Below, one piece after another: positions 5,908 through 16,878 of a stretch of 21,755 bases of DNA. Within the stretch, counting starts at the first letter, position 1. Each line of letters opens with the position of its first letter. Source of the DNA: a virus. Below the pieces are notes generated by a model. That model had not been told where the DNA came from, searched no databases, and was given only the letters and a program-made list of their open reading frames with translations. The position numbers were made by a program, and so were the translations under genes. The stretch lies in the IMG/VR virus record IMGVR_UViG_3300007276_000361, positions 1-21,755 of that record. One strand, 5' to 3'.

Positions 5908-6039
5908 TTAATCAAAATCAAATATGGCTCTTGGATAATGGTTTTTATCACATTCCCATTCGCCATTTCCTCGATAAGTAAATACAAAACGTTCACCACG
6001 CCAGAATCTTGTTACGGTTTCACCTATTGTCCTCTTCAT
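5908..6039 (-). CDS. Tiny ORF (43 aa) overlapping the end of the DNA polymerase gene
   Basis: 43 residues, from MKRTIGETVTRFWRG to a C-terminus ending in FDFD. The ATG lies 20 bases inside the polymerase gene in another frame, with AAGGA about nine bases upstream, a good site. The peptide is soluble, with three Phe, two Trp and a beta-like middle (ERFVFTYRGNGEWECD). It fills the space up to the HNH leader. Tight packing and the ribosome site support it, but there is no homology to lean on. Confidence 0.55.
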   Translation of the reverse strand: MKRTIGETVTRFWRGERFVFTYRGNGEWECDKNHYPRAIFDFD

Positions 6040-8662
6040 CTTTAATTTCCTTTAATTTTTGGTTTGCATATGTCCTTAATTCTTTCGCATCATGCATTCC
6101 GTTAGGAATGACGATTTCCGTCTTCCATGAAGGATAAAATATACTTAATTCACCACCTAGTTTTACAGTGTCGTGCTGAAGTTCAGGAAGCTCCTGCCAT
6201 TGCACACACTCAACTAAGTGTTTATTCATCCAAGCCAATACATGCATGTTGTCATCTACAATAAAGTATTGAGCATCATGTATGTGAGCTATAGGGAAGA
6301 TACCTATGCGATATTTAGAATTAAAAACTCGTTCTTGAAACTCGATACCAGCACGATTGTTTAGCATACCGTAAGACTGGCCAGCAGCATTACCCGCAGT
6401 TCTACCTTCAGCTTTGGCTTCATAAGGTGTATAACTACTACCCCATATTGATTTTTGGATTACAGGAGTTCTGACTCTAAGTCCAAAAGCAACTTCGACA
6501 TAACCTGTCTTAGAAGCTTCCTCAAGCTTTTTAGCAATGTACTCAACTGAGACTTTATATAAGTCTAGAAAGTTGCTCTCAATACGTCTAGCAGTGGTTT
6601 CATCGAAGCCACAGTTAGTCATCAGAGTTATATAAGTACCTTGATAAGTTAATGCAAAAGTAGGTGCTTTAGACATGCCACGAATATCTTCATGTAACTT
6701 TTTAATAGTATTAATACTAGTTACTGTATTTTCAATATGTGGAAACTTCTCAGGGAAATAGCTATAAGCTCTCAATGAGTGAGAATCATAACCATCAGTA
6801 TAAACTTTCAGTTTATTGGGGTCTTTAGTAGTCAGTGCAGATACATAATCTTCAAGTGAATTGAAATCTAAACCGACCATCAACTTACCTTTAGGAGCCA
6901 CAAAGCAATCTTTAATTAATTTTGCATAGGTAGAGCCAGAAGGTATTTGCTGTAAATTTGGATTCTTACAAGACAACCTACCAGACACAGTTCCACCGAT
7001 GTTAAAACTACCCATCAGATAATGCATATCTGTTTCTGGGTCATAATAAGCATCTAAGAATGCTGGTATGAATGATGTGAGTATCTTTGTAGCTTTAGTA
7101 AACTCAATAACAATATCGAGCATAGCTAAAATCAGAGGGTCTTCAGTGTGGTTTTTTAATTTCTTAAGTGTCTTACCACCAGTAGCAGGTTTTTTACTTT
7201 TTGTAAAATCTAATACAGGTAGTTCCAGCATAGTATATAGCAAGTTACACAACTGGACAGATGAGTTCATATTAAATAAATAATTAAATACATCATCAAT
7301 AAGTGGTGCTGTTTTCTTTTTCCACGCATTATGTTTCTCATGATATAAGTCACACCGTATAGTCTCATTAAATAACTGGATATATGGGTTTTTAACTATG
7401 TTATCCATGCAACGTTTTACGATAATTTCAAGCTGCTTTTCAGCATATTTAACTTTAGACATATCCAGTGGCATACCATGAAGCTCTGCTTGCATTAATA
7501 CACCTACAGATGGCTTTAAAATGGTCTCATACACCTTCAGTTGATTGTCAGCTACCATCTTAGGATAATAGGTCTCATACACATAAAACGTGCTTAAAGC
7601 ATCAATCAAGTTGTATTTGAGTAATACCTCTTTAGTTAACAGGGATACATCTTTAATATCTTCTTTATCTAGCGCATAATTACCTGCAAATGGTAAAGCC
7701 AGAGACTTAAGATTTAGCTCGTTACCAGCACAAGAGTTAGTAGCCACATAAGCAATAAGTTTAGTGTCTTCAAAACTGTTTATATCAGCAAATAGTTCAA
7801 GACCTTGAATCATTTCCACTTTGTTAGATAACGTAGATTCCATGATTAGTTCCCAAATGAGAACTTTTGCATCGTAATTGATGTTATGCCAAATGATTTT
7901 CTTTTTATCTTGTATTAAGAACCTACAGAAGAACTCTACTAAGTGATGTCTTGTAGTAGTGGCTTTACAGATTTTGCCAAGCACTTTAGTATCTACTATG
8001 AAAGCACCACCATCATGTTTAGTCCAAGCAAAACTAATAGATGCTAATGCAGCTCTAGTATGATTTAATGAGAAGGCTTCTATATCACAAGTCAGTACTG
8101 GATACTGATGTAGTGATTGTAAGAAGTCACGCTTCTCGTAAGTTAGTTCTGGATATACAGCAGTATTTACTATGTCATCAAAGAAAAGACTACCATCTAA
8201 AAAAGCAGAACAACCTTTATTACTCAATTCTATCTTTGCTTGGTTCTTATCATCGTAGAATATACTCTTGTATGACGGAGTAATAACTACTTTGATGTTT
8301 TCATACCCTTTATAGGTACAATCTACAGTACTACCAAACAGATGAGCTGTATTAGTAATACCAGATAGTATTTTAAAATAGTTAGTGTTAGTACATAATA
8401 GTAAGTCACACTCTATAATAGTAGCTAGAAAATCCAACCAAGGCTTAATAGTAGCATTTACTTTAGGGGTTTTAGCTCCACCAAAGTCTAATCCAACAGC
8501 AACAAAGTCACTCATAGTTAGATTAGGGGTAATATCAAGTATTGGTTGAATGTAGTATTTAATAAGCTCGTCTTTATTAAGGTCAGTATCTTTAGCCAGT
8601 ATTACTACTTTATAGCTAGCTTGAACTTCACCAAACTGGATAAACTTAAGCTTATCAATCAT
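6020..8662 (-). CDS. Family A DNA polymerase with 3'-5' exonuclease, N4 gp39-like
   Basis: 880 residues. The proofreading domain has Exo I (TCDIEAF, D193 and E195), Exo II (HNINYD, N260 and D264) and Exo III (YNLIDA, Y350 and D354). The polymerase domain has SGRLSCKNPNLQQIPS (560-575), motif A (GLDFNSLED, D599 and E604), motif B (K665-APTF-ALT-Y673-QG) and motif C (HIHDAQ, H795 and D796). It is the replicative polymerase. Motif C reads HDA where most family A enzymes have HDE, and motif A has N-S in place of the common S-Q. Both metal-binding aspartates are kept. The first ~185 residues are not typical of Pol I and contain no recognised 5' nuclease. AGGA lies seven bases upstream. The gene order with helicase and nuclease matches N4. 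Confidence 0.93.
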   Translation of the reverse strand: MIDKLKFIQFGEVQASYKVVILAKDTDLNKDELIKYYIQPILDITPNLTMSDFVAVGLDFGGAKTPKVNATIKPWLDFLATIIECDLLLCTNTNYFKILSGITNTAHLFGSTVDCTYKGYENIKVVITPSYKSIFYDDKNQAKIELSNKGCSAFLDGSLFFDDIVNTAVYPELTYEKRDFLQSLHQYPVLTCDIEAFSLNHTRAALASISFAWTKHDGGAFIVDTKVLGKICKATTTRHHLVEFFCRFLIQDKKKIIWHNINYDAKVLIWELIMESTLSNKVEMIQGLELFADINSFEDTKLIAYVATNSCAGNELNLKSLALPFAGNYALDKEDIKDVSLLTKEVLLKYNLIDALSTFYVYETYYPKMVADNQLKVYETILKPSVGVLMQAELHGMPLDMSKVKYAEKQLEIIVKRCMDNIVKNPYIQLFNETIRCDLYHEKHNAWKKKTAPLIDDVFNYLFNMNSSVQLCNLLYTMLELPVLDFTKSKKPATGGKTLKKLKNHTEDPLILAMLDIVIEFTKATKILTSFIPAFLDAYYDPETDMHYLMGSFNIGGTVSGRLSCKNPNLQQIPSGSTYAKLIKDCFVAPKGKLMVGLDFNSLEDYVSALTTKDPNKLKVYTDGYDSHSLRAYSYFPEKFPHIENTVTSINTIKKLHEDIRGMSKAPTFALTYQGTYITLMTNCGFDETTARRIESNFLDLYKVSVEYIAKKLEEASKTGYVEVAFGLRVRTPVIQKSIWGSSYTPYEAKAEGRTAGNAAGQSYGMLNNRAGIEFQERVFNSKYRIGIFPIAHIHDAQYFIVDDNMHVLAWMNKHLVECVQWQELPELQHDTVKLGGELSIFYPSWKTEIVIPNGMHDAKELRTYANQKLKEIKDEEDNR

Positions 8663-9250: not shown

Positions 9251-10540
9251 TCAATCCTTACAAATAAATACCTTATGTCTGGGTCTAGTGATTGCTACAT
9301 TGAACAATCTATAGAACAACAAAGGATTAGTGACAGTTTCTAAATCATTAAAGTCTACGATGGAATAATCATATGTGCTTCCTTGTGCTTTATGCACTGT
9401 AGAAGCCCAAGAATGACGTATATCCATTACTTGTTCTTTAAGTTTATAGAATTTAGGCCAATCTCTATCATTTTTAGCAGACTTAAGGAATGAGTTAAAT
9501 TGGTTGTAGTCAGCAGGTATGGGAAAAGATTTATTTCCAAATTCTTTGAACATAACATTACGAAGTTTTAAACCACTGTCTTGAATATATATTTCACCTA
9601 CGTTACTTATAGTAAGTTTGGCTTCATTGCGAATAACGGATTGACCAAACATGTAAAAAGCATTTGAACATACTTCTTGGTCTTTATGAAACCCTGTATC
9701 ACCATACTTCTGCTCACAAATCCAGTTATTGTAACCAATAACAGTTTTGTTAGTGTACGCTAGTATTTTTGAGTTAAAGTCATTATCAATACAATGATGC
9801 TTAATAACATCTTTCATTTCATTGCTGGTAATGCGCTCAAAGGTATTATCAAACAATAGTAAATCCATATTACCTGTATCAATGGCTCTTTCAGCCGCTA
9901 ACGAGTTCATATGTATAGCAGAGTTTACTGGATACCTAAATCGTTCCGTCAGGAGGTACTCAGGGATATGTGGCTCAAATATCGGAGATATACGAGAACC
10001 AACAGGAGTAGCTTGATAGAAATCTGCAATAAGTATTAAGTTAAGATTCATATCAAGTAACTGGTCTTTAATATGGTGCCAAAGTATTCCATCTGCATAA
10101 CTAGCTTCATCAACAATAATTAATGAATTAGTAGGGAATGACATACAGGACTGTTTTTTATTACGGCTTACTTTAGTTTCACCAGTGGTGTAGTCATTAA
10201 AGACTTTTAAAGTAAGTAAACTATAAATAGTTCTACACGTAATAGTACCGAAGTCTTTTTCTAATTTTTTACCTGCTAATTCATCTAATACAGCTAAAGC
10301 TTTATTAGTAGTAGCAGTTAAAAATACGTTAGCAGAAGACAGTACTTTTGTTTCTGGGTCAATAATACGTTGTATTTCATTAAACTTAAGAAAATGACGC
10401 ACTATCATCTCTACAACAGTAGTTTTACCTACACCAGCCCCGCCTTGGATACGTAACATCTCCTGAGTTGGGTCTGAAAACATCTTAGACAAGACAGGAA
10501 GTAAATCCTGCTTGTCTTGTGAAAGTTCTTTAAGTTCCAT
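9251..10540 (-). CDS. SF1 DNA helicase, RecD/Dda-like, N4 gp37-like
   Basis: 429 residues with the superfamily 1 motifs in order: Walker A (GGAGVGKTT, 33-41), motif Ia (TATTNKALAV, 75-84), Walker B (LIIVDEAS, 140-147), motif III (LILIADFYQATPVG), then HKAQGST (383-389) and AITRPRHKV (416-424) as motifs V and VI. The HKAQG and TRPRH forms are typical of the RecD/Pif1/Dda branch, which moves 5' to 3'. It probably unwinds DNA ahead of the phage polymerase. Its ATG overlaps the upstream stop by one base (TAATG). The substrate direction is inferred from the family. Confidence 0.88.
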   Translation of the reverse strand: MELKELSQDKQDLLPVLSKMFSDPTQEMLRIQGGAGVGKTTVVEMIVRHFLKFNEIQRIIDPETKVLSSANVFLTATTNKALAVLDELAGKKLEKDFGTITCRTIYSLLTLKVFNDYTTGETKVSRNKKQSCMSFPTNSLIIVDEASYADGILWHHIKDQLLDMNLNLILIADFYQATPVGSRISPIFEPHIPEYLLTERFRYPVNSAIHMNSLAAERAIDTGNMDLLLFDNTFERITSNEMKDVIKHHCIDNDFNSKILAYTNKTVIGYNNWICEQKYGDTGFHKDQEVCSNAFYMFGQSVIRNEAKLTISNVGEIYIQDSGLKLRNVMFKEFGNKSFPIPADYNQFNSFLKSAKNDRDWPKFYKLKEQVMDIRHSWASTVHKAQGSTYDYSIVDFNDLETVTNPLLFYRLFNVAITRPRHKVFICKD

Positions 10541-10918: not shown

Positions 10919-11119
10919 TTACACCTCCAAATTATCTTCACTTGCATTATGAATGAGCCATGCCTTATAAATGGCTTCTTGACTCATTGAAGTATGTTCC
11001 TGCAAAGCACTGATATATGCTTTTTGAATTAACTTAGTGACCTCTGTTTGAAGGGTATCAACAGTGTCCTCTAAATTGCTTATTGTTTTAACTAACTCAC
11101 TAGTCGATTTCAAGCTCAT
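10919..11119 (-). CDS. Small coiled-coil protein
   Basis: 66 residues. Residues about 6-40 form an amphipathic helix with heptad-like spacing (LVKTISNLEDTVDTLQTEVTKLI), a likely coiled coil. The rest is helical (SQEAIYKAWLIHN). The ATG is 20 bases inside the end of the VWA gene in another frame; the ribosome site is poorly spaced (GGGAG, more than ten bases away), so translation probably depends on coupling. Its end holds the strong site for the next gene. No family recognised. Confidence 0.6.
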   Translation of the reverse strand: MSLKSTSELVKTISNLEDTVDTLQTEVTKLIQKAYISALQEHTSMSQEAIYKAWLIHNASEDNLEV

Positions 11120-12305
11120 ATTCTATGACGCTCCCAAATTCAGGTTCAAATTTTTTATTATCATAGATAACCCAAATAACAGGAAAAGTTATTAGTTCTG
11201 GTTTATCGTATGGTCGAAAGTAACCATCAGTAAAAATGACAGCTACCTCTGGTGGGTTTTGTATCCAATGTTCTAACAAAGGATATACATTAGTACCACC
11301 AGTTTCATCAAAAGTAATGGTATCAAGACTCTGATAACGCTCTACTTTAGTGATGTCTGCTAAACTATGATGCCACTGAACAATTTCAGTCATGCTTGGA
11401 TTTAAAGCTTCTTTGATTTGCTCAATTTCACTCTTAAAAGCATTAAATTGGTCATCAGAAACAGACCCAGAAATATCAATACCACAGCCTATTTCCCCCA
11501 TACCTTCTGAATATAAGCTGGGGATAATAAGCGCAGGCATGTAACGCTTATTAGGTCTGCGATATGAATAATCATCACGACACAAATCAAACATATAGTT
11601 ACGAAGTAAAGTCCTCCAATCTATTTTTGGATTAATAAGTTCTTCAATTCTTCCAGCTATACAGTCAGGAACATCTTCAACTGAGCCATCAGCTTCTGGA
11701 TTCATTTTAGATGCAGTATTAGCTTTAACTATGATTTCATCTAGTTTTTGCTTCAACTGGTCTTGTTCTAATCCACTTGGGTCAGGATTACCATCACCAC
11801 TATTATTAGCAGCGGGAGTAAAATCAGGAATAAAATTGGGGTTTTGTGATTTATTTTTCATTAAATCAGCATAGACTTGCTCAGTAGACCAATTTGCATA
11901 TTTTGAATTACAACAAGCTTCTTGTGGTATTGAATAACCTTTATCCTTGAGCATAAGGTTAATAACATGGTCAGCAGCTTCATTATAAGTTTTAAAGCAA
12001 CTGCCAGTTGGCATATCAGTAAAACGAGTAATATGCTCAAATGCAATATGCCAAGCCTCATGAGCCAATAGAAACACTCTATACCCATTAGTAAAGTTCA
12101 AAAAGAACTCTGGATTAATTCTGAGGGTTATCCCGTCTACATTAGCAGTTGGAATTGACATATCCCATTTCAGTTTAAGACTGAATAAGATAGTAGTTGT
12201 GAAGACACTACGTTTAATTGAAATAAGCTGCAACTTAGCTTTATCTAAAGCAGCATTAGCTTGTTTAAGTACCGTAGGGTCTATTTTTATTACTTGTTCA
12301 GTCAT
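11100..12305 (-). CDS. VWA-domain protein with HExxH metallopeptidase-like domain, N4 gp25-like
   Basis: 401 residues. The N-terminal half has LLAHEAWHIAFEH (79-91), giving H82-E83-xx-H86 and H91, the zinc-peptidase signature of DUF2201_N-type domains. The C-terminal half has a von Willebrand A-like fold with the metal-binding site DISGS (277-281), a threonine in GGTNV (T338) and an aspartate in VIFTDG (D360). A polar, Pro/Asp-rich linker (about 158-185) lies between. It forms a pair with the MoxR-type ATPase gene directly upstream (8-base gap), the usual partnership of MoxR ATPases with VWA proteins in assembly or remodelling. In N4 this pair is conserved but I know no settled role. The HExxH histidines look intact, so protease or metal-binding activity is possible. 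TAGGAG lies upstream of the ATG. Confidence 0.83.
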   Translation of the reverse strand: MTEQVIKIDPTVLKQANAALDKAKLQLISIKRSVFTTTILFSLKLKWDMSIPTANVDGITLRINPEFFLNFTNGYRVFLLAHEAWHIAFEHITRFTDMPTGSCFKTYNEAADHVINLMLKDKGYSIPQEACCNSKYANWSTEQVYADLMKNKSQNPNFIPDFTPAANNSGDGNPDPSGLEQDQLKQKLDEIIVKANTASKMNPEADGSVEDVPDCIAGRIEELINPKIDWRTLLRNYMFDLCRDDYSYRRPNKRYMPALIIPSLYSEGMGEIGCGIDISGSVSDDQFNAFKSEIEQIKEALNPSMTEIVQWHHSLADITKVERYQSLDTITFDETGGTNVYPLLEHWIQNPPEVAVIFTDGYFRPYDKPELITFPVIWVIYDNKKFEPEFGSVIEYELEID

Positions 12306-12313
12306 GATAACTC

Positions 12314-13354
12314 CTAGAATAATTTTTTAGCGTTAACATCAAGCCAATTAATAAAAGCAGTGCTAGTTTTAAGCTCAGGCTTGTTTGCACCTATTTTCTT
12401 AATAGTTGATACCTGATGCTCTATTGGCAAACGTTCAACATATTGCATTACTGCAAGTATATTATCTTTATCAGTACGTTCACCTATAACACCAGACAAA
12501 GCAAATAAAGCACTAGGCTCTTCAGGGATTGGAGCACGTTTTGGATTGTTTGAGATTGTTTCAAACTTAATAAGTTCTTTGTAAATCTCTAAAAATGCAC
12601 GAAACTCAGTTCCAATACCGTCACCTACAGTACCTGCATACATTGGCATTAAACTATAATCATGTGCTGGGGTACTTGCTGGGACTTTGGCCAAAATCTT
12701 ACTTAAAAATTCCATTGTACGAGGACAACAGAAAGTTTTATCAGTATGTTTTGGGTCAAAAGATGAAAGTACATCTGGTCTGTGTTCTGCATAAGCAATA
12801 ACACGAGGGTCAAATTTCTTTTCAATAGCATGTTCTATCCATTCTTTAGCACTTACTACTAATTCAAAATGAACCATACGAGACTGCAAAGCAGTAGACA
12901 TCCTTGAAGCAACAGCATTATCTTTAACGCCATTACCAGCAGCCATCATCAACGCTCTGGGATGTAACTTATGGTTACCAATCATTCTATCAAGTATTAC
13001 TTTATAAGCAGCAGCCTGAATTGCAGGAGGTGCAGCAGTAATTTCATCAAAGAATATTAAGTAACCATCCTTACCTTCTGGTAATTTATCCATACCATCA
13101 ATAGGGAATACTGAAGGCGGTAAATAATCAGCACGACCAGTTGCAAGATTAGGAGCAATGAAGCCATTTAAATCAGTTGGGTCTACAGTACTAAGACGAA
13201 TATCAACCATTACTAAATTGAACTCTTCACAGATTTCAGTAGCAATAGCTGACTTACCAACACCTGGGCTTGAAGACATCATTGGACACAATCCAGCCAT
13301 TAAAACTGGGATGATAGAAGCTTTAGCACTCTTAGGAGTAACTGTATATTTCAT
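12314..13354 (-). CDS. MoxR-type AAA+ ATPase, N4 gp24-like
   Basis: 346 residues. Walker A SPGVGKS (29-35), Walker B LIFFDE (99-104) followed by the MoxR-style ITAAPPAIQAAAYKVI, sensor 1 around N141 (MMAAGNG), and arginines at 151 and 159 (ASRMSTALQSRM) in the arginine-finger region. These place it among the MoxR/RavA-like AAA+ ATPases, which remodel proteins together with VWA-domain partners; such a partner is encoded right after it. It is preceded by a hairpin after the rIIB stop, and the ATG has AAGGA about nine bases upstream. The substrate is not known. N4 gp24 is the probable counterpart. Confidence 0.87.
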   Translation of the reverse strand: MKYTVTPKSAKASIIPVLMAGLCPMMSSSPGVGKSAIATEICEEFNLVMVDIRLSTVDPTDLNGFIAPNLATGRADYLPPSVFPIDGMDKLPEGKDGYLIFFDEITAAPPAIQAAAYKVILDRMIGNHKLHPRALMMAAGNGVKDNAVASRMSTALQSRMVHFELVVSAKEWIEHAIEKKFDPRVIAYAEHRPDVLSSFDPKHTDKTFCCPRTMEFLSKILAKVPASTPAHDYSLMPMYAGTVGDGIGTEFRAFLEIYKELIKFETISNNPKRAPIPEEPSALFALSGVIGERTDKDNILAVMQYVERLPIEHQVSTIKKIGANKPELKTSTAFINWLDVNAKKLF

Positions 13355-13396
13355 GAGGGGATTTCCTTTATTGTATTTTTTTAAAAAGTCGAATTA

Positions 13397-13413
13397 ACCC
13401 TCCGAAGGAGGGT
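13397..13413 (-). terminator. Hairpin between rIIB and the MoxR-type ATPase gene
   Basis: Perfect 7-bp inverted repeat ACCCTCC/GGAGGGT with a three-base loop (TTC on the minus strand, GAA on the plus). It begins 5 bases after the rIIB stop. The run of T (CTTTTT) comes about nine bases further on rather than directly, so termination may be weak; RNA 3'-end protection or processing is an alternative. The rest of the 64-base gap (13355-13418) is AT-rich with the ATPase ribosome site. Confidence 0.5.
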
Positions 13414-13418
13414 CAGGA

Positions 13419-14558
13419 TTAACCTTTATAGACAGATACTACTTTGTACCTACAAGTACGAGCTTTGGTGAATTGATAGTCACTAGGGATGGATACGAAG
13501 TCTTGAGGACGTACTACAACCTTAACTATTTGATTTCCTTTATTACTACCACCGTAACCAGAACGGTCAAGATATTTAAGAGCACATACATGCAGACCAG
13601 CAGAACAAGTTTGGTATGGGTTATCATCTACTTCACTTCTACGCATTACTACAGTATCACCAACACGATTAAGTATCTTGCTAGTGAAGCAGTCAGTAAA
13701 ATCACTATTAACACGTTTAAAGCACTCTACGTTACCTTCAGGAGTTATAGTTACACCAGCATGTTTAATGAGTTTCCACAGGTGAGTATAAATATGCTCA
13801 GATGGAGTCATCATTAAGTTTTCAAAGAACTTAAGTAAATGTTCCATTGGCTCTTTACGTTCAAACATTACAAGTAAATCATCAACAATAGCATTATTTA
13901 TTAAATTACCATTAAAGGTAATACCTGTAGTGCTGACAACAAAATTACCAAATTCTAAATTAGCTATTTTGTGAACAACAGACATTAAACTAAGAGCATC
14001 TTTATGTTCACCAATGTCTAAATTATGAATAATTTCTGTGTAATTTTCGTGGTCTTTTTCTACGGACAACGTATTACCATCACTTAATAGAACACTAATA
14101 AAACGTGTTTTATCGACAGTCCAAGAGAGTATTTCATTGCTAACATCAGTAATGGGGGTTTCAACTTCAAAAATAGTACCACTAATTTTAGTTTCAGAGA
14201 CAGTCTCACCCTCCTCTTCAGGAGCTTCATTTGGCTCAGTAGAGTCAGTAGCATCTTGAGTTTCAGGAGTATTAAGTTCTGGAGGAGCTTTAGTTAATTC
14301 TTCAGGTACGGGGTCAAGAGCCGCTTCCACCACTTTAGCAGTCTTAACTGGCTTAGAAGCTTTTTTAGGAATTTCACCTAGAAATTTAGCATTTTTAAGA
14401 CCTGCTTCATCAAGAATACGATTAAGTGTACGCAATGATGTACCATGTTCTTCAGCAAACTTGGTTTTGTTTACAGGGGCTTTACTTAAAGCATGTTGAT
14501 AATCTGCAATAATTTTCTTATTACGTTGTTGTTTTTCAATTTCTTTATTCGTTGGCAT
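13419..14558 (-). CDS. rIIB-like protein with N-terminal helix-turn-helix
   Basis: 379 residues. The N-terminal 60 residues look like a helix-turn-helix (NKTKFAEEHGTSLRTLNRIL). A low-complexity acidic and Pro/Thr-rich linker (about 65-130) follows. The last ~105 residues carry the rIIB core: ECFKRVNSDFTDCFT, then VDDNP (310-314), TCSAGLHVC (317-325) and SIPSDY (356-361). In T4, rIIA and rIIB overcome RexAB exclusion; in N4-like phages the pair is common and its role is less clear. The start overlaps the end of rIIA by 14 bases with AAGGA upstream, so the two are coupled and likely act together. Confidence 0.85.
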   Translation of the reverse strand: MPTNKEIEKQQRNKKIIADYQHALSKAPVNKTKFAEEHGTSLRTLNRILDEAGLKNAKFLGEIPKKASKPVKTAKVVEAALDPVPEELTKAPPELNTPETQDATDSTEPNEAPEEEGETVSETKISGTIFEVETPITDVSNEILSWTVDKTRFISVLLSDGNTLSVEKDHENYTEIIHNLDIGEHKDALSLMSVVHKIANLEFGNFVVSTTGITFNGNLINNAIVDDLLVMFERKEPMEHLLKFFENLMMTPSEHIYTHLWKLIKHAGVTITPEGNVECFKRVNSDFTDCFTSKILNRVGDTVVMRRSEVDDNPYQTCSAGLHVCALKYLDRSGYGGSNKGNQIVKVVVRPQDFVSIPSDYQFTKARTCRYKVVSVYKG

Positions 14559-16878
14559 CAGGATTAAATCCTTTAAAGTTAAGTTTAAATAACTCTACAA
14601 TTAATGAACTATTGGTGTTACTAGATAGTAATTTTAATGTAGGGCGACGAGTTTGTAATAAATCTAAACGTTTTTTGATACGCTTAAAATTTATAGATGC
14701 TTCTTTATCTAGGTAGTCATACTCTTTTGATGTTATATGCATTGAAGCTAAGTTAGGAAAATCAGGTGCAAGCACATGTTTAGGAACAAATTTAAAAAAG
14801 TAATCTTTAATTTCAGGAATCTGAATTAAAAAGCATTCTAAAGATGAATAAGCAAAGTCACGTATTTTAGTAAATTTCATTCTTTTGATTGAACGATTTT
14901 TCCATTCAGTTTTAACACTATCTGGAATATTACTAAGCATTGTTTCCATGATAACTTTCATTTCTACAAATTTAACATTTTTACTGTTATGTAACCTTTC
15001 AGCAAAACCATAGGGTAAATCAAAAGTTACAACATTTATTTTATGATACTTACAAAGTTCTTTTAATTTCTCTGTATTGTAATAAGCATTTTTAGTTGTA
15101 GTAAATACTACTTCATGGTCATACTGTTCAGTGTATGCATCACAAGCTTCTTTAATAGCACTTATTGAATGCTTACAGTACTTAGTTCTCCTTATTCTTG
15201 TACCGTCCCACAGAAACACTTCAGTATCTACTTCACGTAAATTACCTGATGCATTAATTACTCGATTACGTTCTTTAACCTGCTTAGGTAAGTCTTCTAA
15301 TTCAACTACTTCAACATGCATAAATAACTTTTCAAGAAGTGCTTGGGTAGCATCTAAATCAGTATCGTTTACTACTAAATACTTAGGACAGCTTCCATTA
15401 ACTAGAAAATTTCTTTTATAGTAATTATCTTCAACACTTCGTTTATAGTAGGGGGAACAACCAGATACTTTATACTTACTAACTAAACCAGATTCAGCTA
15501 ATTTACCTTCGTCAAACCAGTGATTAAGTTTTTTAATGTACCCAGCATCACGCTTTATTAATACAATGCTACGACTAATGGTGTACCAAAATCTAACATC
15601 AGCGTTATCAAATTTTTTAGTTTTCTGACCATTACAAACAATAAATTCAATAGGAGTTTCTCTGTCTTTATTAAAATTTTTAATGGTCTGATAAGCAAAA
15701 TCTACGTAACTAAAAGGAACGTTAGTATATTTCATACGTACAGGACTGAAATCAGGTTTTGTAGAATATCTGCACATAATATACTTAGTCATATCTTCAC
15801 TAGGAGAGTTATTGAAGATATATTCTATTGCTTCGTTGGTAGGTAACAATCTTGCTTGATATGCAATAGTAATAGCTTGTGTGAGATAGTATTTGTTTAA
15901 ACTACTCATTACAGCAGTTAATACATTATTAGTTCTTTCTGTGTAGTCTAAATCCTCTCTAGAAGGTTTTATGTCTACAGTATCAACTGGTAAGTCAATC
16001 AAGATGTTATAAGCACCTGATATATTTTTAATGACTTTTAGTTTTTCTTCGTATTGGTTATAGAACTCTGATGTGACGTTAATAGGATATACTACACAAC
16101 CCATACGAATTGCTAATGTATGTTTAGTAGCCTCAAGGTAAACAGAGACTTCAGTAGAAGATTTAATTAAATCACCATTATCATCTGGTAAATACAAACT
16201 AGGTGTAATTTTAAAACTATCTGCTTTTGTAAGGTCGTACTGATACTCGAAGTCTATTGCAGAACTTAAACCTCTGATAATATTTGGTTTAACATCAAAT
16301 GGAGCTAATTGAATCTTAGCAGCATTAGTAAATCTATCAAAATCGTCAGATTTAATAGGTATTTTTACTTCAACACCATTCTTTTCATCAGTAAATCCTT
16401 CAAGTAATAATTCCAATGGAGATGAATTCTGTAAGCATGAGCTTTGATATATTCTTCTAACACCATCTTTATAAGTAGTGATGAAGAACGTATCTGTATA
16501 AGCAGCAGGAGACTTACCACCAACACCCCAGCCACCAATAGAGTTACTGGTTGAATTCTTAGTAGATTCACCTAGAACAGCATACACGTTGAATACAGTG
16601 TCATTATCCATACTGACTCCGTAATCCCGTACTATAAAGTAAGGTTTAAGAGGAGAAGGTAATGTAACATCAAAAGGTAATTCAGGAGTACCAGCAGCAA
16701 TGTGGCCATCTAAAGCATTAGTACAGATTTCCCGTACAATAGCTTCAATAGGACGAATGTACAGACCCTTGGTGACAATCCTAAAGATAGTATTGTTTAT
16801 CGAGGTCTTATGTACATTTGATTGGATTGGTTTAGCACCACCACGTATGGTCTGCTCATGGGATAAGTTAAGTCTCAT
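14545..16878 (-). CDS. rIIA-like GHKL ATPase
   Basis: 777 residues. The N-terminal domain is a GHKL ATP-binding fold: N-box AIVREICTNALDGH (E50, N54), G1 box VRDYGVSM (D85, G87) and G2 box GGWGVGGKSP (115-124), as in T4 rIIA, Hsp90 and MutL. The remaining ~550 residues are poorly conserved and rich in aromatic and basic residues (KYYLTQAITIAY, KKLNHWFDEG). The partner rIIB gene follows directly. Family knowledge suggests a membrane-associated or exclusion-resistance role. The start overlaps the upstream zinc-protein gene by 11 bases, with AAGG nine bases before the ATG. Confidence 0.87.
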   Translation of the reverse strand: MRLNLSHEQTIRGGAKPIQSNVHKTSINNTIFRIVTKGLYIRPIEAIVREICTNALDGHIAAGTPELPFDVTLPSPLKPYFIVRDYGVSMDNDTVFNVYAVLGESTKNSTSNSIGGWGVGGKSPAAYTDTFFITTYKDGVRRIYQSSCLQNSSPLELLLEGFTDEKNGVEVKIPIKSDDFDRFTNAAKIQLAPFDVKPNIIRGLSSAIDFEYQYDLTKADSFKITPSLYLPDDNGDLIKSSTEVSVYLEATKHTLAIRMGCVVYPINVTSEFYNQYEEKLKVIKNISGAYNILIDLPVDTVDIKPSREDLDYTERTNNVLTAVMSSLNKYYLTQAITIAYQARLLPTNEAIEYIFNNSPSEDMTKYIMCRYSTKPDFSPVRMKYTNVPFSYVDFAYQTIKNFNKDRETPIEFIVCNGQKTKKFDNADVRFWYTISRSIVLIKRDAGYIKKLNHWFDEGKLAESGLVSKYKVSGCSPYYKRSVEDNYYKRNFLVNGSCPKYLVVNDTDLDATQALLEKLFMHVEVVELEDLPKQVKERNRVINASGNLREVDTEVFLWDGTRIRRTKYCKHSISAIKEACDAYTEQYDHEVVFTTTKNAYYNTEKLKELCKYHKINVVTFDLPYGFAERLHNSKNVKFVEMKVIMETMLSNIPDSVKTEWKNRSIKRMKFTKIRDFAYSSLECFLIQIPEIKDYFFKFVPKHVLAPDFPNLASMHITSKEYDYLDKEASINFKRIKKRLDLLQTRRPTLKLLSSNTNSSLIVELFKLNFKGFNPDANE

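Follow-up and report, generated by a model that had tools for sequence, protein, structure and literature searches.

A conserved MoxR/Midasin-type ATPase and metallopeptidase-VWA protein pair in N4-like phages, probably an ATP-coupled remodelling or peptidase system

Described systems and the locus in the window

Two proteins of phage N4 are the natural reference for the locus described here: gp24, which carries the annotation of a putative AAA ATPase, and gp25, which is annotated only as a vWFA protein (PMC2784036). Both are middle transcripts of N4 and are among the 14 N4-like core genes, a core which is found in 25 N4-like phages with diverse hosts (PMC4193335). A pair of a MoxR ATPase and a metallopeptidase-vWA protein has also been described by Iyer et al. 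(2021) in group 2.2 jumbo phages, with virion assembly and proteolytic processing proposed as its role (PMC7824862). Elsewhere, MoxR-VWA couples are described mainly as chaperones (PMC7159879). In phage LIT1, for which 14 virion proteins are reported, the pair corresponds to gp33/gp35, which the text on these virion proteins does not name (PMC3715699). We have not found in the literature an assigned function for gp24/gp25, a described function for the bacterial and plasmid proteins with PF13203 and PF09967 domains, or anything on DUF2201 with MoxR, COG3864 or Schitoviridae transcriptomes.

The window, that is, the whole stretch of DNA analyzed (21.8 kb from an IMG/VR record), belongs to an N4-like phage, for which gene order and best relatives suggest the Schitoviridae. 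Its nearest relative is Alteromonas phage vB_AemP_PT15-A5 (A5 in what follows), the two proteins of the pair being 56% and 58% identical. Phage Jura has N4-type relatives that are divergent, sharing 38% and 31% identity with the proteins of the pair. The genes considered here are all on the minus strand. A rIIA-like gene (14545-16878) and a rIIB-like gene (13419-14558) are followed by the ATPase gene (12314-13354, 346 amino acids), the counterpart of N4 gp24, which matches phrog_1297 (1e-112) and Pfam AAA (4e-4). Then comes the gene for the metallopeptidase-VWA protein (11100-12305, 401 amino acids), the counterpart of N4 gp25, with a match to phrog_1314 (2e-111). Two small open reading frames lie between it and a helicase-like gene at 9251-10540; further on, at 6020-8662, is a DNA polymerase gene. 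The identity of these last two genes comes from synteny with A5. The window has the same pair as N4, in the same order and the same region. The jumbo-phage pair has the same architecture, a MoxR ATPase beside a vWA protein with an N-terminal metallopeptidase, but it has been proposed for virion assembly, whereas the pair in the window sits with replication and rII genes.

The preliminary description of this DNA had called the two genes adjacent, and both open reading frames are confirmed on the minus strand, 8 bases apart. On direct reading, the VWA gene is preceded by an AGGAG ribosome-binding site at 12311-12315 (minus strand), which overlaps the ATPase stop codon. This overlap and the 8-base gap make co-translation plausible, and the arrangement suggests that both genes are translationally coupled. 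Between the rIIB-like and ATPase genes there is a 9-bp GC-rich hairpin (13395-13415, minus strand; 13383-13415 with its T run), with five T after 7 bases and a folding energy of -16.6 kcal/mol (z -1.4). A terminator scan of the window did not call it: it is a weak candidate for a terminator-like boundary of a transcription unit. By eye, residues 30-55 or so of the protein encoded by the rIIB-like gene look like a helix-turn-helix, and those from about 70 to 130 like a long acidic linker.

It was already known that gp24/gp25 are core genes, and the MoxR and metallopeptidase-vWA pair had been described together with its domains. How far the residues are invariant, the revision of the third metal ligand and the predicted zincin fold are new here, as are the plasmid and bacterial distribution, the N4-like context which speaks against a purely late role and the finding that the label 'HNH endonuclease' is wrong.

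Domains, conserved residues and predicted fold

Residues 19-256 of the VWA protein match PF13203, 'Putative metallopeptidase domain' (2e-35; 123.1 bits, cut-off 23.2), and residues 275-395 match PF09967, 'VWA-like domain' (7e-21; 75.1 bits, cut-off 26.4). Both domains are matched in 20/20 diverse relatives (E <= 0.01). A search of the window proteins against NCBIfam gave no match. Our first alignment comprises the VWA protein and 19 relatives from full-length tblastn. Peptide patterns taken from one window protein alone retrieved no related loci; these were obtained after dividing the 20-row alignment into closer groups, with short peptide patterns around the HExxH and D112 motifs as the means of retrieving viral loci. 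The resulting alignment has 177 sequences, including 157 viral loci, with identities down to about 22%.

The HExxH active-site helix, H82-H86 (HEAWH; 12048-12062, minus strand), lies in a predicted helix covering residues 73-88, and H82, E83 and H86 are present in 177/177 sequences. The preliminary description had named a lack of HExxH conservation among close homologues as a refutation, and the motif is kept throughout. Further on there is an NxAxDxxIN motif, N108-N116 (11958-11984, minus strand), in which A110 and D112 are invariant (177/177), N108 is found in 172 and N116 in 174 of the 177 sequences; the motif falls within a predicted helix spanning residues 102/104-121. The C-terminal half is a VWA domain of the MIDAS type, with a Rossmann-like VWA fold and the DxSxS...T...D pattern: D277, S279 and S281 in the DxSxS motif (11463-11477), T338 (11292-11294) and D360 (11226-11228), all on the minus strand and all five in 177/177 sequences, in agreement with the earlier claim that the MIDAS residues are retained. 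The residue numbers given previously for H82, E83, H86, H91, D277, S279, S281, T338 and D360 are exact.

The retrieval of loci by motif patterns did not create this invariance, because loci retrieved from one side only keep the motif of the other side: 109 loci were obtained by the D112-side peptide alone, and all have HExxH, while all 35 loci obtained by the HExxH-side peptide alone have D112. The 19 full-length tblastn relatives also keep HExxH, D112 and the MIDAS residues, and the same catalytic and MIDAS residues are kept in the relatives from plasmids and bacterial genomes, which came from tblastn or a profile. As judged from these alignments, the conservation of the zincin-site and MIDAS residues is not due to chance.

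The site had been described as HExxHxxxxH, and only part of this description stands. H91, its third histidine, is replaced by D in 4/177 sequences and by Q in 1/177: the invariant unit is HExxH together with D112. D112 is a more probable third metal ligand than H91, since it is invariant and lies in the next helix, while H91 is variable. The position of D112 presumably matches that of the ExxxD in gluzincins, Asp replacing Glu, with N116 four residues on. Two other assignments have been considered and rejected. A metzincin site (HExxHxxGxxH) with H91 does not fit, H91 being 5 and not 6 residues past H86 and D or Q in 5/177 sequences. A gluzincin site with E109 as the third-ligand Glu does not fit either: position 109 varies freely (I/Y/Q/W/A/K/V/E), and the invariant downstream acid is D112.

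AlphaFold2 gives a model of the full VWA protein with a mean pLDDT of 90.3 and a pTM of 0.78. The VWA half resembles VWA and integrin I-domains, with Z 13-14.5 over about 130-157 residues. Structure searches with the full model were filled by such VWA matches, so the N-terminal domain was folded separately (pLDDT 93.7). Nearly all of its best 22 structural matches are zincins, with modest scores (Z 4.4-6.7, below 8) over 87-145 aligned residues. They include the BlaR1 protease domain, an Acidothermus zincin-like protein, selecase, ArdC, jannalysin, the aspzincin GfMEP, BepA and a SprT-type protease. Foldseek with the same model places selecase first (E 0.013). Single window proteins compared with the PDB by phmmer gave nothing useful; when a sequence profile of the N-terminal domain is used, all matches up to E 5 are HExxH metallopeptidases, although weak (M48 0.007, selecase 0.03, HtpX 0.05, BepA 0.2). 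In the model, HExxH is in helix 73-88, after three strands, and D112 is in the next long helix, as in zincins. The N-terminal domain is thus predicted to be a zincin fold. A fold in which the histidines could not meet at a metal had been named as a possible refutation of the site; the zincin fold, with its high pLDDT and zincins as best matches, speaks for the site and settles the matter at the level of the fold only.

Among the structural matches, the minigluzincins selecase and jannalysin and the aspzincin GfMEP are small zincin folds (Z 5.0-5.9), but they are free-standing peptidases, without a VWA domain or an ATPase partner. The minigluzincins use Glu as the third ligand, while the GfMEP group uses Asp.

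The ATPase has the features of an AAA+ protein. Its Walker A motif (P-loop) is S28-S35, SSPGVGKS (13250-13273, minus strand), with K34 in 137/139 ATPase relatives, the other two having an alignment gap at this position. Walker B is L99-E104, LIFFDE (13043-13060, minus strand), with D103 in 137 of these relatives and E104 in 133, replaced by D in 6. The sensor-1 residue N141 and two arginines, R159 and R212, are also conserved among the 139 relatives; from their position, these arginines would be the Arg finger and sensor 2. A profile of 20 ATPase relatives finds the AAA modules of Midasin as its best PDB match (5e-26), far above other AAA+ proteins; CbbQ, of the MoxR family, is matched at 4e-4. 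The dedicated MoxR models AAA_3 and bpMoxR match 3/20 relatives each, and in a Pfam search of the window ATPase neither was found. Because of the few matches to these models, and with Midasin as the best match, 'MoxR/Midasin type' is the safest name for this ATPase. Midasin (Rea1/Mdn1), like the pair in the window, links a MIDAS domain to AAA+ modules; it differs in that a single chain holds the MIDAS domain and all six AAA modules, that it lacks a peptidase and that it serves ribosome assembly.

Pairing, distribution and genomic context

The ATPase gene is found upstream of the VWA gene, on the same strand, in 165/178 loci, at 1.5 kb or less in 156 of them. It does not appear in 10 of the stretches that we fetched. 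Three of these come from records longer than 75 kb, in which the ATPase is present elsewhere; six come from records of 10-51 kb, which may be fragments, and the remaining one is L157. The Vequintavirinae (L018, L020) differ from other phages in having the ATPase and metallopeptidase-VWA genes on opposite strands and separated by several kb. The pairwise distances of both proteins appear to covary, with partial correlations of 0.44-0.84 given four control genes, but of only 0.14 when RNAP2 is the control. These alignments and loci support the earlier statement that a MoxR-type ATPase and a MIDAS VWA protein with a zincin-type site are conserved across N4-type phages.

Outside phages, the pair is found in plasmids of Burkholderia, Cupriavidus, Synechocystis and Sphaerotilus. 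In the plasmid and bacterial-genome relatives the ATPase gene is adjacent or one gene off. These DUF2201 (PF13203/PF09967) proteins have the same two domains, the same invariant residues and a nearby ATPase; it is the carriers that differ. In the Burkholderia and Cupriavidus megaplasmids (L182, L183), the pair has one intervening gene and lies downstream of PRTRC-system genes, and in L182 type IV secretion genes come after it. In Synechocystis pSYSA (L184) the pair is near toxin-antitoxin and CRISPR genes, and in the Sphaerotilus plasmid (L185) it is near Sir2 and DUF262 genes: these two neighbourhoods may hint at a defence setting. We should also note that a 75 kb record labelled 'Acinetobacter baumannii plasmid pRBH2-3' (L186) resembles an N4-like phage, with a phage-type RNA polymerase, the ATPase and the VWA gene. 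The sole match in a genome contig, from a Zixiibacteriota MAG (L178), is a phage contig to judge by its neighbours, which encode an RNA polymerase, ThyX and dCTP deaminase; PF13203 is found in 2/98 genomes of the Zixiibacteriota group.

Replication, RNAP, rII or nucleotide-metabolism markers are found in 89/157 viral stretches, and no capsid, portal, terminase, tail or vRNAP marker was found near the gene in any of the 157; the markers were proteins of close phages, which makes both counts minimum values, and distant structural genes could escape detection. In A5, the structural genes are on the strand opposite to the pair, more than 13 kb away. The N4-like context speaks against a purely late role. 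The opposite context is found in jumbo phage Kaldavass, where the pair is among virion structural genes; the family as a whole may therefore not share one phase of action.

Possible roles of the pair

Every catalytic residue is kept in all the relatives examined, and for this reason the pair has the look of a functional machine that remodels or cuts proteins. It is probably an active, conserved ATP-coupled remodelling and peptidase pair. We give about an even chance to a more specific reading, an ATP-driven remodeller and limited protease which acts in mid-infection in N4-like phages. The MoxR/Midasin-type AAA+ ring and its dedicated zincin-VWA partner would form one machine. Its zincin site would use HExxH, with Glu83 as general base, and D112 as third ligand, giving a putative peptidase. 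The MIDAS-bearing VWA domain would probably bind the ATPase or the substrate through a metal ion. ATP hydrolysis may then pull or remodel the target, and the peptidase domain would cut it once or a few times. In N4-like phages this would take place in the middle phase, on a target common to the family, the simplest candidate being a phage replication, transcription or membrane complex. Against this reading stand the modest Z values of the N-terminal domain, the weak covariation given RNAP2, the split genes of the Vequintavirinae and the location of the Kaldavass pair.

A role as a chaperone-protease in virion assembly, in which the pair would mature structural proteins or help them fold, appears unlikely to us. 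It has been published for this pair in jumbo phages of group 2.2 (PMC7824862), there is an analogy with the tail chaperones of archaeal virus ATV, and the location of the Kaldavass pair agrees with it, as does roseophage RPP1, whose middle region has the genes of four virion proteins close to the gp24/25 homologues (PMC4193335). The lack of nearby structural markers in the N4-like stretches argues against it, and so do the strand of the A5 pair, opposite to the structural module, and the middle expression of N4 gp24/25, although chaperones made early could still serve assembly. The same middle expression would suit a host-directed protease or counter-defence factor, which would cleave or disarm a host protein during takeover. 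The resemblance of the N-terminal domain to the antirestriction protein ArdC (Z 5.2) and the presence of relatives on conjugative plasmids, partly near defence-like genes, point in this direction. However, a host-specific weapon is expected to have a patchy distribution, whereas gp24/25 are core in 25 N4-like phages (PMC4193335), and neither protein matches a PADLOC model (E <= 0.1). We therefore regard a host-directed role as distinctly improbable.

It is also highly doubtful that the pair is a pure ATP-driven chaperone, with the zincin domain as a structural zinc module or a substrate clamp that does not cut. RavA-ViaA and Midasin do remodel complexes without known proteolysis (PMC7159879), but a general-base Glu83 would be superfluous in a structural zinc site, and it is invariant in 177/177 sequences. 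Against these alternatives, we prefer the limited protease and remodeller. If the cleavage is true, core genes of a whole phage family would encode an ATP-coupled protease of a new type. A wider proposal, which we put forward as rather speculative, is a class of ATP-dependent protease separate from those of FtsH, Lon, Clp, HslUV and the proteasome. In it, a MoxR/Midasin-type ring would feed a VWA-tethered zincin with an aspartate ligand (HExxH + DxxxN); the class would extend across phages, plasmids and bacteria, and every N4-like phage would need it. E83, D112, D277, K34 and E104 are sites for point mutants which could separate the ATPase, VWA and peptidase roles in phage N4.

Finally, phrog_1314 and many GenBank records carry the label 'HNH endonuclease', which is almost certainly mistaken: the predicted folds are zincin and VWA. 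We have rejected this identity, as no HNH family is among the Pfam matches of 20 relatives, 20/20 of which match PF13203 and PF09967. Correcting such a widespread label would aid phage annotation. Other labels found on phage records of the metallopeptidase-VWA family are 'homing endonuclease' and 'anti-sigma factor'.
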